Origin: Methanobrevibacter ruminantium M1
Lineage (GTDB): Archaea; Methanobacteriota; Methanobacteria; Methanobacteriales; Methanobacteriaceae
DNA length: 64,000 nucleotides
Reading direction: 5' to 3'
Assembly: GCF_000024185.1 (NCBI RefSeq)
Contig: NC_013790.1
Span: forward strand, 953,501-1,017,500
In this document: piece after piece, positions 34,387 through 43,622 of the stretch
Layout: each line of letters begins with the position of its first letter
Numbering within the stretch: position 1 is the first letter of the stretch
Made by a program: the position numbers and the translations under genes
The notes under the pieces: model-generated
The model's input: only the letters and a program-made list of their open reading frames with translations
What the model was told of the DNA's origin: nothing
Databases searched by the model: none

Positions 34387-34596
34387 TTGATAATTTTAAC
34401 ATTGCCAAATCAAATAGAAAGTTTTTTATCAAAGCAAAAAAATATTATAGTTGTGGCAAAAGCCACAAATAAATATCGAGGTGATTATATAACAAGATTA
34501 AATGAAACCAAGTATGTCGAATTTAATATTGGAAATGCACCAAAGGCTATGATATTTAGCCGATGCGATATTTCAAAAGGAGGAAGAGAGACTTAA
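34387..34596 (+). CDS. Possible antitoxin partner of RelE-like toxin
   Basis: 69-codon ORF beginning TTG ATA ATT, without a Shine-Dalgarno, 35 bases ahead of the RelE-like gene on the same strand. The product contains NIIVVAKATNKYRGDYITRL and YVEFNIGNAPKAMIFSR; it is basic and has no known antitoxin domain that I can see. Its place and size suit an antitoxin. The start is uncertain; an internal TTG at 34402 is possible. It may be a truncated gene. Confidence 0.4.
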   Translation: MIILTLPNQIESFLSKQKNIIVVAKATNKYRGDYITRLNETKYVEFNIGNAPKAMIFSRCDISKGGRET

Positions 34597-34631: not shown

Positions 34632-34952
34632 ATGTCCTTCCCTACTCAAATCAGGAATGAGCAAGAATTCCGTCTTGCCCTTCTGCATTTTTTAGGCGAT
34701 ATCAATGTGGGTCTAGTTTATACAAAGAAATTTTTCAAGGAGTTTATGGGTCTTGACAATTCTGTACGGCAGATATTGGTAAATCAGATCAAGAACGCTT
34801 TGAAAAACCCTGGTTGCGGCAAATTCATGTCTCATAATTATAAGGGTGAAAAAGCCGTTAGGGTTGATAAACGTTATAGATTGCATTTTAAATATGATAA
34901 AAAAGAAAACTTATTTGAGCTAGTATCTTTTTATAAAAAAGACTATCAATAA
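34632..34952 (+). CDS. RelE/ParE-superfamily toxin-like protein
   Basis: 106 residues. The C-terminal 80 residues have the RelE/ParE pattern: YTKKFFKEFMGLD, a helix, YKGEKAVRVDKRYRLHFKY and LFELVSFYKKDYQ, with the basic R-V-D-K-R-Y-R strand that holds catalytic arginines in mRNA interferases. An N-terminal extension of about 30 residues (SFPTQIRNEQEFRLALLHFL) is unusual. Likely an mRNA interferase or gyrase inhibitor; antitoxin may be the ORF before it. Immediately downstream is an orphan antitoxin-type small RNA gene. A fragment of its last codons is repeated at 36859. Confidence 0.65.
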   Translation: MSFPTQIRNEQEFRLALLHFLGDINVGLVYTKKFFKEFMGLDNSVRQILVNQIKNALKNPGCGKFMSHNYKGEKAVRVDKRYRLHFKYDKKENLFELVSFYKKDYQ

Positions 34953-35005
34953 GTTCTTTTTTTATCTTTCCTTCTTTTTTAGCTTTTTTTTAACTTTTAA
35001 GAAAA

Positions 35006-35016
35006 GATTATATATT
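35006..35016 (+). promoter_or_regulatory. TATA box of orphan small RNA
   Basis: GATTATATATT, identical to the TATA box of the small RNA at 37441, about 26-30 bases before the presumed start near 35034. Confidence 0.5.
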
Positions 35017-35033
35017 ATTATTCTTATAATAGT

Positions 35034-35112
35034 TATTGTGAGTACTCAAAAAGTGCACGCAATATGTTGTAGAAATTATTAGTAAGAATTCATCAGAATT
35101 CTTACTTTTAGT
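35034..35112 (+). ncRNA. Orphan copy of locus A antitoxin small RNA
   Basis: About 80 nt. It repeats the small RNA of locus A (37441-37520) almost exactly, including the TATA region, GTGAGTACTC near the 5' end, the pairing segment CAATATGTTGTA (35060-35071), and the terminal hairpin AGTAAGAATTC/GAATTCTTACT (35081-35106, loop ATCA). No 25-codon peptide gene lies upstream; instead the RelE-like gene does. Since the pairing segment is identical, it could act in trans on the locus A peptide mRNA. Confidence 0.6.
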
Positions 35113-35379
35113 TTTAATTAATTAAAAATTTCTTAAAAACTATTTTTCATTTAATAATTTTCAATTTCCATCCAATTCTTGTTTTTCTGTAGATAAATTT
35201 TAATCTATTTAATAAGAAGATTTATTTTTATGATTTTACTTTTCTTGCCTATATTTCGCCATTAAAAGATTTATTTCTAAACTAAAATCCTTAGGCTCTT
35301 AAATCTTCTTTATTAGAAAATTTTATATTAATCTCCAACCAAACTATAATTATCTAATTTTTATATTGTGGGTGATAAT

Positions 35380-36711: not shown

Positions 36712-37009
36712 GCCAAAAAGAGCATTCCTCTTATTATAAGCATATGTTTTTTTAATCCGTATTTTCCTTATTTTCCTTATTCGATATTTATTTTTCTTAA
36801 ATCCATATTTCTTTAAGCTAGTTATATGGGAAAAATACTCATATTATGATAGTCTCTATATAAAAAAGACTATCAATAAGTTATTTTTTCATATTTTATT
36901 CTTTTTTAGTTTTTTTTATAATTTAAAGAAATAATTTGCATTAATAATCCTTTTCTCTAATTTTTATTAATTAAATCACCATATGCTTGATTAAAATCAT
37001 TGTTCCAAT
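36712..37009. other. Gap with a remnant of the RelE-like gene end
   Basis: AT-rich. At 36859-36885 the sequence TATAAAAAAGACTATCAATA and the following AGTT repeats the last codons (YKKDYQ and stop) and first untranslated bases of the RelE-like gene at 34632. The copy is embedded in a hairpin GATAGTC...GACTATC. No complete gene is present. Confidence 0.55.
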
Positions 37010-37151
37010 ATTAAATCAATTTAACACTTTGAAGTCAAAATTGTTACGATATCAAAACAATTTAACACTTTGAAATCAATATTGTAGCGATATCAAATCA
37101 ATTTAACATTATCGCATCAATTTTACGAAGTAAAATCAATATTGGGGCGAT
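37010..37151 (+). repeat. Operator-like repeat array upstream of locus A
   Basis: Four imperfect units at 37010, 37051, 37092 and 37116, with a period of 41 bases for the full copies. Each begins ATNAAANCAATTTAAC, most end TCAATATTGTNGCGAT, and the last contains ATTTTAC-GAA-GTAAAAT. The array ends 14 bases before the TATA box of the 25-codon gene. The same array recurs at 43021. It probably binds a regulator as direct repeats. Confidence 0.7.
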
Positions 37152-37164
37152 AAATACCGTTTAA

Positions 37165-37174: not shown

Positions 37175-37221
37175 ATGAACTTTAAACTAATATTGAAGGT
37201 TTTTCTTACTTAAATAAAAAT

Positions 37222-37233
37222 TACAACATATTG
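37222..37233 (+). promoter_or_regulatory. Antisense target in the locus A leader
   Basis: TACAACATATTG is the exact complement of CAATATGTTGTA in the small RNA at 37468-37479 (and in the orphan RNA at 35060). It ends one base before the Shine-Dalgarno GGAGG (37235-37239), so pairing would hinder 30S binding. Confidence 0.65.
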
Positions 37234-37246
37234 TGGAGGGTTAATT

Positions 37247-37324
37247 ATGAAGTTCGACCGGAACGAAATCATAACTATACTTCTCGAATTGGTCAAGATC
37301 ATCATTTTGATGATTAAAGACTAA
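37247..37324 (+). CDS. 25-residue amphipathic peptide, candidate type I toxin (locus A)
   Basis: Begins MKFDRNEIIT and ends IIILMIKD, with ILLELVK between: charged ends around a mostly aliphatic amphipathic helix, typical of small membrane-damaging toxins. GGAGGG stands 7-12 bases before the ATG. The nearly identical ORF in locus B (43260, MKFERNEIIT... with LVKIIIL kept) shows amino-acid conservation across both copies, with several synonymous codon changes (AAG/AAA, GGxxCGG kept, TTG/TTA, AAG/AAA), so it is translated. Flanks, promoter and downstream RNA are also conserved. Toxicity is inferred, not shown. Confidence 0.75.
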   Translation: MKFDRNEIITILLELVKIIILMIKD

Positions 37325-37413
37325 TTCCGCACTTAGACAGTCGAATGCCAAAAAATATTAAGTTTTTTTTAATTTTTTCTTTGGTAAGCTTTTTCCTTCA
37401 TCTTTTAAGAAAA

Positions 37414-37427
37414 GATTATATATTATT
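37414..37427 (+). promoter_or_regulatory. TATA box of locus A small RNA
   Basis: GATTATATATTATT, about 25 bases before the presumed RNA start near 37441. The same box stands in the orphan and locus B copies. Confidence 0.6.
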
Positions 37428-37440
37428 ATTCTTATAATAG

Positions 37441-37520
37441 TTATTGTGAGTACTCAAAAAGTGCACGCAATATGTTGTAGAAATTATTAGTAAGAATTCT
37501 TCAGAATTCTTACTTTTAGT
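37441..37520 (+). ncRNA. Candidate antitoxin small RNA (locus A)
   Basis: About 80 nt, same strand as the toxin, starting about 117 bases after its stop. It contains GTGAGTACTC (5' region, shared with the other copies), the segment CAATATGTTGTA (37468-37479) that is exactly complementary to the toxin leader, and a terminal 11-pair hairpin AGTAAGAATTC/GAATTCTTACT (37489-37514, loop TTCA) followed by a T-rich run. No ORF. Because it is encoded downstream and not overlapping, it acts in trans by short pairing, like IstR or RatA-type antitoxins. Confidence 0.65.
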
Positions 37521-37934
37521 TTTTAAATTGAATCCTTTTTTTTAAATCCTTATTTTCTTGTTCAATTACTGATTTTTTTAATCATTATTTCTTTATATAA
37601 TAACTATTTTTTCTCAAATTCCCTATTTCTTTAACCTAATGATAAAAATATTCATTCTAATAAATGTTCAAGGTATTTTGCATATACATTTACTGAAATA
37701 TCAATCTCCTTTGGCCTCTAAAACCCCGGAGGATGAGTAAAACTATTTAAAACTAAACTATCTTATTTCTATTCAAATAATCTCCAATATAATAATCCTC
37801 CCTTTTTATTCGATTTCTTCCATAACTTTAATTTCATTCTTAAAAAATCATAAAAAATACAAAGATTTATATGTGACTATGTCCTTATACTTTTTGAAAA
37901 AGTGAAATATGTAATTTTGATTGGAGGTAAAGTT
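37521..37934. other. AT-rich gap
   Basis: About 400 bases with no recognised gene. A short GC-richer stretch near 37713-37735 (GGCCTCTAAAACCCCGGAGG) has a small inverted repeat CCTC/GAGG. The right edge is the GGAGGT binding site of the next gene. Confidence 0.4.
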
Positions 37935-42882: not shown

Positions 42883-43020
42883 TTTTTTCCCAATTTTTTC
42901 TCTTTTATCATTTTATTTTTTTATCTTTTTCTCTTTTTATCTTTTTTTAATTTAAACTAAGTTCAATAATCCTTTTTTCTAATTTAAATTTTCGATGATT
43001 GATCAAAGTCCTTGTTTTGA

Positions 43021-43162
43021 TATCAAATCAATTTTACAGTTTGAAGTCAATATTGTTTTGTTATTAAATCAATTTTACAGTTTGAAGTCAATATTGTAGC
43101 GATATCAAAACAATTTAACGATATCAAATCAATTTTACGAAGTAAAATCAATATTAAATCGA
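43021..43162 (+). repeat. Operator-like repeat array upstream of locus B
   Basis: Counterpart of the array at 37010: units start ATCAAATCAATTTTACAG or similar at about 43022, 43063 (two full copies of TTTGAAGTCAATATTGT), 43103 (short) and 43120 (with ATTTTACGAAGTAAAAT). It ends 14 bases before the TATA box. The similarity to locus A over 250 bases shows that the whole locus, not just the peptide, was duplicated. Confidence 0.7.
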
Positions 43163-43259: not shown

Positions 43260-43337
43260 ATGAAATTCGAACGGAACGAAATCATAACCATTTTTCTCGA
43301 ATTAGTCAAAATTATCATTTTGGTTTTTAAAGACTAA
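43260..43337 (+). CDS. 25-residue amphipathic peptide, candidate type I toxin (locus B)
   Basis: Begins MKFERNEIIT, continues IFLELVKIII and ends LVFKD; four conservative changes from the locus A peptide (D/E at 4, L/F at 12, M/V at 22, I/F at 23). GGAG lies 8 bases before the ATG. The gene sits between an alpha/beta hydrolase and the adhesin-like gene, in the 740-base gap between divergent and convergent neighbours. Same architecture as locus A: repeat array, TATA box, leader of about 55 nt, peptide, then a small RNA gene on the same strand. Confidence 0.75.
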   Translation: MKFERNEIITIFLELVKIIILVFKD

Positions 43338-43427
43338 TTCTGAACTCAGACTGTTGAATGCCAAAAAATATTAAGTTTTTTTTAATTTTTTCTTTGGTAA
43401 ACTTTTTCCTTCATCTTTTAAGAAAAG

Positions 43428-43440
43428 ATTATATATTATA
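43428..43440 (+). promoter_or_regulatory. TATA box of locus B small RNA
   Basis: GATTATATATTAT, the same box as for the other two RNA copies, about 25 bases before the presumed start near 43455. Confidence 0.6.
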
Positions 43441-43454
43441 ACTGTTATAATATT

Positions 43455-43535
43455 TATTGTGAGTACTCAAAGAGTTCACATATTTTGTTTTGTAAAAATT
43501 TAAAGTAAGAATTCATTTGAATTCTCACTTTAAGT
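43455..43535 (+). ncRNA. Candidate antitoxin small RNA (locus B)
   Basis: About 80 nt, about 118 bases after the peptide stop. It keeps GTGAGTACTC at the 5' side and a terminal hairpin (AAAGTAAGAATTCA/TGAATTCTCACTTT, 43502-43531, 13 of 14 pairs). Between them the pairing segment has diverged from locus A: CATATTTTGTTTTGTAA (43479-43495) replaces CAATATGTTGTA, matching the change in the locus B toxin leader. This covariation is the best evidence that the RNA and the peptide mRNA work together. Confidence 0.65.
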
Positions 43536-43622
43536 TTTTAATTAATTCTATTTATCTAAAAAACTATTTTTATTAATTAATTGTTAATTTTGCTTTTTTT
43601 TTATTTTAAACTAAGTTCAAAT

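Follow-up and report, generated by a model that had tools for sequence, protein, structure and literature searches.

A toxin-less antitoxin-type RNA gene in Methanobrevibacter ruminantium, predicted to target a small-peptide module 2 kb away

Introduction

Among described systems, the closest to the locus reported here is the solitary orz of Escherichia coli: in about 30% of the genomes of this species orz is present and zor is not, and a solitary orz of this kind is expressed, as seen on a northern blot (PMC11264685). The hok and aapA toxin mRNAs are marked by long-distance closure between their 5' and 3' ends (PMC6733600). A paper of 2025 states that type I toxin-antitoxin (TA) systems were until then known from Proteobacteria, Firmicutes and Tenericutes alone, and adds the Cyanobacteria (PMC12390103). 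Our search of the literature, whose coverage was incomplete and leaves absence unproven, found no archaeal type I TA system.

We analysed a window of 64,000 nt, i.e., positions 953,501-1,017,500 of the single 2,937,203-bp chromosome of Methanobrevibacter ruminantium M1 (coordinates below are those of the window unless a contig or the chromosome is named). The stretch 34995-35115 is probably an intact gene for an antitoxin-type small RNA (sRNA) that lost its toxin and would still target in trans a nearby module of peptide and RNA, hereafter locus A.

Results

A whole RNA gene without a peptide gene

Two repeats of 132 nt, at 34984-35115 and 37392-37523, share 96% identity. Within the first of them, the block 34995-35115 differs from the RNA block of locus A at one position in 121 (35092, A/T, in the terminator loop), and this identity ends abruptly at both edges. 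The 23-nt core of the repeat, GTGAGTACTCAAAAAGTGCACGC, occurs twice in the window and never in dinucleotide shuffles. We scored these RNAs with R1, a covariance model built from 11 related RNAs: the first copy (the orphan) reached 78.8 bits (E = 8.1e-11), that of locus A 82.1 and that of a second module, locus B, 77.2, the next forward-strand match in the window being at 18.4. The RNA block of locus B (43421-43543) is a third, diverged copy, and more copies exist elsewhere in the genome. The orphan block corresponds exactly to one complete predicted sRNA transcription unit, from promoter through U-tail. The features of this region are as follows.

34632-34952, + strand: putative RelE/ParE-superfamily gene, 106 aa (33-40% identity to homologues in the genus)
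34953-34994, + strand: T-rich tract after the RelE-like gene, likely an oligo-T terminator; left junction of the orphan block
35000-35015, + strand: BRE/TATA of the orphan RNA, AGAAAAGA TTATATAT, identical to locus A (TATA at 35008-35015)
35038-35115, + strand: orphan antitoxin-like sRNA, ~75-80 nt (R1 score, near-identity to RNA A)
35038-35060, + strand: 5' hairpin of the orphan RNA, folding at -7.0 kcal/mol
35058-35072, + strand: orphan pairing segment, CGCAATATGTTGTAG, complementary to the locus A leader that carries the ribosome-binding site (12-nt core at 35060-35071)
35081-35115, + strand: orphan terminator hairpin (17-pair helix) and U-rich tail

The orphan TATA box lies ~26 nt 5' of the predicted transcription start (~35038), a spacing found equally at the other loci inspected, and a 5' hairpin is predicted in most RNAs of the family. 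The promoter begins ~48 nt after the RelE-like gene and the predicted start lies 86 nt after it. Between the RelE-like stop (34952) and the orphan RNA there is no peptide ORF of the locus A type: the antitoxin RNA gene is whole and the toxin ORF is missing. The description given in an earlier note on this DNA thus holds: it spoke of a near-identical copy of the locus A RNA, about 50 bases past the RelE-like gene and without a 25-codon gene, having the TATA box, pairing segment and hairpin in common with locus A. The TATA box (35008-35015), pairing segment (35060-35071) and hairpins are indeed those of locus A. No leader or ORF remnant of a toxin mRNA was found at 34953-34994, a tract that resembles the far-left flank of locus A; we also considered it as a remnant of the locus A 3' UTR and rejected this, the alignment being no better than those of shuffles. 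Searches with Rfam returned only a tRNA over the whole window at the gathering threshold, and no credible family for the orphan RNA at E values up to 1.

The adjacent RelE-like gene is not a plausible target

Adjacency alone would suggest that the orphan RNA regulates the RelE-like gene, in a mixed type I/II arrangement. We regard this as highly improbable: the best pairing of the orphan with the RelE start region (-10.4 kcal/mol) is near background (mean -9.1, sd 3.0), and the RelE homologues of the genus have no such RNA in their vicinity. We therefore rejected the gene as a target of the orphan. Pfam ParE_toxin matches seven of the eight aligned members of its family and TIGR02385/TIGR00053 match six (best profile E-values of the homologues between 4e-5 and 7e-4), the window copy alone matching none of these profiles. 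A PDB search with the RelE alignment gave no match. Relatives have a 33-aa ORF with an ATG directly 5' of the RelE-like gene (ending in ILGGRKT*), and the corresponding frame in the window (34470-34596, ending in ISKGGRET*) has ATA at the position expected for the ATG. The putative RelB-like partner may thus have lost its start codon in the window.

The orphan is antisense to the leader of locus A

The two modules of the window, both on the same strand as the orphan, consist of the following elements.

37194-37399, + strand: predicted peptide A mRNA, 5' GAAGG (37194) pairing with 3' CCTTC (37395-37399)
37222-37233, + strand: target site in the peptide A mRNA, followed by its Shine-Dalgarno sequence (SD) at 37235-37239
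37247-37324, + strand: 25-aa peptide of locus A, MKFDRNEIITILLELVKIIILMIKD, which is presumed to be the toxin and the orphan's target (ORF, peptide family)
37446-37523, + strand: locus A sRNA (repeat, pairing, R1)
43260-43337, + strand: locus B 25-aa peptide
43459-43538, + strand: locus B sRNA, its pairing segment altered to fit leader B (17 bp)

The orphan segment 35058-35072 forms 15 contiguous pairs with 37221-37235. The predicted duplex of the orphan RNA with leader A has an energy of -20.6 kcal/mol, compared with -6.4 to -7.2 for leaders B, C, D and E. For the 12-mer TACAACATATTG the genome has a single sense-side site, which lies in leader A; beyond this the 12-mer is present only in complementary form, in the orphan RNA and RNA A. 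Leader A also ranks first for orphan pairing among 500 SD-preceded start windows of the analysed stretch, a rank that is not decisive by itself because the runners-up, at -18.3, are within reach. The predicted inter-hairpin segment of the orphan is thus perfectly antisense to leader A just 5' of the SD, which the pairing touches; of the modules in this genome, A alone is matched in this way. The proposal that this is an antitoxin-type RNA aimed at locus A gains from the finding that the genome offers it no perfect 12-nt sense target other than leader A. If transcribed, the orphan would add, in trans, to the cis antitoxin of locus A.

Arrays of AT-rich repeats of ~41 nt (containing ATCAATTTAACA) are present at 36999-37152 and 43020-43160, and also at three other loci (L113, L125, L127). 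In the M. ruminantium genome they sit directly 5' of the module peptide promoters, and there is none before the orphan RNA. They are possible operator or regulator sites.

Pairing and mRNA closure covary across modules

In each module, the inter-hairpin RNA segment is antisense to the module's own peptide leader around the Shine-Dalgarno sequence, which the pairing overlaps or abuts. The two paired sides change together between modules: TACAACATATTG / CAATATGTTGTA at locus A, TTACAAAACAAAATATG / CATATTTTGTTTTGTAA at locus B, TCCCTAAAAAAAT / ATTTTTTTAGGGA in G006 and TTCATTACTTGGAG / CTCCAAGTAATGAA in G016. When the RNAs of the distinct modules were paired with all leaders (a 14 x 14 matrix), the own leader was the best for 13 of the 14 RNAs, and the summed cognate energy (-298.9) was reached by none of 20,000 permutations (mean -160.6, sd 14.7). 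Hence all modules have what type I TA systems have, a non-coding RNA complementary to the presumed toxin mRNA, the pairing being cognate and covarying. We infer that the module RNA would repress its peptide mRNA.

The predicted peptide mRNAs have the closure of the hok and aapA kind. At locus A, the long-distance pairing between the 5' GAAGG and the 3' CCTTC is predicted at -17.4 kcal/mol, and across 14 loci the cognate 5'-3' pairing exceeds all 20,000 permutations. It includes a double change to GGAGG/CCUCC (L025, G009). Since the RNA-leader pairing covaries and the mRNAs show covarying 5'-3' closure, the modules look like archaeal type I TA pairs, meaning that they would work like such pairs rather than that they are such pairs.

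The module family was found in the genus alone

Strong copies (R1 matches with E < 1e-4) number 21 in 11 of the 19 genomes of the genus, and none was found in the 120 family genomes outside it (139 genomes in total). The M. ruminantium genome has seven RNA copies: those of loci A and B, those of three further loci with a peptide each, the orphan, and a tandem second copy at chromosome position 1,355,275. Complete modules of peptide and RNA number 15 in nine genomes of the genus, five of them in M. ruminantium M1. Correspondingly, 15 R1 copies lie 107-123 nt 3' of a gene for a peptide of 25 or 39-40 residues, lengths that fall within those of small hydrophobic type I toxins (<60 aa). The 15 peptides have a charged N-terminus, a conserved hydrophobic core (approximately E-x-x-K-I-x-I-x-x-x-K) and a lysine end, and no Pfam family matched them. 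There are two length classes: 25 aa (37247-37324 and 43260-43337) and 39-40 aa (L113, L125, L127). The longer peptides look like the product of an internal duplication of an ILKYS-like helix.

Each RNA has a predicted promoter and terminator of its own in the sequence, with a TATA box at fixed spacing and a conserved helix. Over 21 distinct RNAs, the terminator helix has 17 pairs with 96.9% of cells paired; five pairs show double-sided changes and 13 cells are changed on both sides. None of 500 shuffles equals the helix in its share of paired cells or in its number of cells changed on both sides. Two RNA matches were discarded as due to chance (L109, in a tRNA region, and L110), and an alignment of the sequence 5' of the L101 promoter with L024 was rejected as spurious. 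An isolated terminator-like remnant of the RNA family (L120, G006:C45:23468-23512), matching on both strands, resembles a bare terminator and was left out of the counts.

Two further loci are of note. One (L047, G016:C1:276718-279742) encodes a small hydrophobic peptide of another kind, MDVLLKLSILFILLGFIQVVIYILI. Its leader contains ATACGAACT and CTAGCAGG, and an RNA-like element lying downstream (AGTTCGTAT, CCTGCTAG), equipped with a TATA box and a terminator, matches this leader in part. It is possibly a second, unrelated type I-like module. At the other (L157, G009:C235), the peptide MKFDSHDFVYIFIELLKIILSFFI is more divergent, the leader is GTTGTCAT, and ATGACAAC and a hairpin follow downstream; it is likely a distant family member missed by the RNA model.

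RNA-only loci recur, peptide-only loci do not

Including the orphan, six loci have the RNA without the peptide (five if L103 and L107 represent one event), and none has the peptide without the RNA: all 15 peptide matches below 1e-7 have an adjoining RNA. We rejected L157 as a peptide-only locus, because its own divergent RNA-like element rules this out. A clean deletion is seen in G002 (L103), where ~265 nt are missing in one stretch relative to G004 (L038), with breakpoints in T-runs, such that the promoter and first leader bases of the peptide mRNA now adjoin the module's 3' end. An RNA-only copy lies beside the same gene in G017 (L107). In G015 (L101), a near-copy of the module RNA of G004 stands without a peptide, and in G014 (L106) the last codons alone are left of a truncated peptide. 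A remnant of the toxin mRNA is kept at L103 and L106. Recurrence of toxin-deleted RNA loci in four other species speaks for the loss of a toxin, which the earlier note had raised for the orphan. In M. ruminantium, a 39-aa peptide gene is followed by two tandem antitoxin-type RNAs (G000:C1:1355275-1355612; L123, L125), the second of which has a mismatch to the leader within the pairing segment and is counted among the six.

This asymmetry between RNA-only and peptide-only loci is expected if the peptide is toxic, and the bias, in small numbers, is consistent with a peptide that does harm when its RNA is absent. It also bears on a reading in which the modules are ordinary sRNA-regulated genes for small membrane proteins and the orphan an additional regulator. 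In its favour, the peptides match no Pfam family and are toxins by presumption. We nevertheless consider it distinctly unlikely, given the make-up of the peptides (charged N-terminus, hydrophobic core, lysine end), the occurrence of RNA-only and never peptide-only loci, the mRNA closure of the hok/aapA kind, and the many diverging copies per genome.

The orphan might instead be an inert relic, left over from toxin loss or produced by gene conversion, and either silent or without effect beyond that of the cis antitoxin. Some copies do persist without an obvious job: the RNA-only loci L101 and L103 have weaker or no resident targets (best in the same host -14.3 and -13.0 kcal/mol). Moreover, RNAs in decay are also to be expected after toxin loss, and an RNA may thus be retained and yet have no function. 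This explanation seems rather unlikely for the orphan, which has kept an intact promoter, pairing segment and hairpins, with one change in 121 positions, while the adjoining sequence has diverged by 17%.

RNA-only copies could also confer immunity against addiction, neutralising incoming or resident modules and allowing the host to lose a module or to tolerate its horizontal arrival. The presence of RNA-only loci in at least four other species, and the near-identity of the G015 RNA (L101) to the module RNA of another species (G004), would suit this explanation. We think it unlikely here, for the M. ruminantium genome already harbours the target module together with the cis antitoxin of that module, we saw no mobile carrier, and viral contigs searched for the leader pattern gave no match. 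We retain, as the most likely, the reading of the orphan as an intact antitoxin-type gene that would still act on locus A.

Shared flanks and a proposed duplication of a RelE-module unit

The sequences around the orphan and locus A share more than the RNA. Directly 5' of locus A lies a partial copy of the RelE-like gene:

36853-36922, + strand: truncated RelE 3' end and T-rich tract

The tail of the RelE-like gene recurs there at 36853-36880 (..SLYKKDYQ*), preceded by in-frame stops, and the alignment extends across the T-rich terminator as well (local score 91, against at most 39 in shuffles). The tract 34953-34994 aligns with 36880-36919, in the left flank of locus A (47, shuffle maximum 42). 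The segment 5' of the RelE tail, named X, matches the right flank of locus A (47, shuffle maximum 37), and the match between the right flanks of the orphan and locus B is marginal (51, shuffle maximum 47). The earlier note had seen the last RelE-like codons next to locus A and proposed recombination between the two sites; the first point is borne out by the recurring tail, and the second is strengthened by the scores of the tail with its T-tract and of X.

From these flanks, which agree with a tandem duplication of a RelE-module unit followed by reciprocal loss, we infer the following course. A unit comprising the RelE-like gene, the peptide/RNA module and X would have been duplicated in tandem; a deletion between T-runs would then have removed the peptide from copy 1 together with the repeats and promoter, and most of the RelE-like gene would have gone from copy 2. 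A single duplication event is insufficient to explain both the flanks (83% identity) and the RNA (99%), so that later gene conversion, or strong constraint through purifying selection on the RNA, would have to be added. The neighbouring zinc-ribbon gene, taken as an anchor, has a syntenic counterpart in none of the other 18 genomes of the genus, and since no relative keeps the site, synteny does not confirm the order of events.

Discussion

The earlier note had offered two meanings for the orphan: an extra dose of antitoxin acting on locus A, or a remnant of toxin loss. The RNA fits both, and only their opposition falls, as they are not alternatives to each other. On the wider scale, it is quite possible, and we put it forward tentatively, that these archaea have a family of bacterial-style type I TA systems with hok-like closure and fast-diverging specificity between RNA and leader, in which toxin-free RNAs accumulate and act in trans as dose insurance or immunity.

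If true, a module family in rumen methanogens, with its covarying pairing, would carry the type I mechanism into another domain of life, the second to have it. The orphan provides a natural test, with one RNA and an identical pairing segment that would act on a presumed toxin gene unlinked to it, and the recurrence of RNA-only loci with no peptide-only ones would argue, on evolutionary grounds, for the peptide as the harmful partner. Rumen methanogens are a source of agricultural methane, and self-toxic peptides in them would therefore be of practical interest.

The orphan resembles orz-only loci of the zor/orz system of E. coli in being a solitary antitoxin sRNA that bears a promoter and would follow the deletion of a toxin gene (zor encodes 29 aa). 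Leader fragments may remain at orz-only loci, to which L103 is comparable. It differs from them in its archaeal host, its promoter, its sequences and the same-strand tandem arrangement, and in that its target toxin would still be resident 2 kb away. The genes for IsoA and Sok lie on the strand opposite their toxin genes, whereas the module RNA follows its peptide gene on one strand, has a predicted promoter of its own and pairs through a short segment that covaries. CreTA has a crRNA-like antitoxin and depends in addition on Cascade; it is RNA-based like the modules and occurs in archaea, and has otherwise no resemblance to the family. The Methanosarcina sRNA162 (PMC3510493) is an archaeal trans-acting sRNA, is not a TA element and does not resemble the family either. 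With aapA/IsoA of Helicobacter and hok/sok of plasmid R1, the modules share the predicted 5'-3' closure of the peptide mRNA and an antisense RNA to its 5' region (PMC6733600). The msoT1/msoA1 pair of Microcystis (PMC12390103) is a type I system outside the classical phyla, as the modules here would be, but a bacterial one. Relative to the orz-only precedent, what sets the candidate described here apart is the domain of life.
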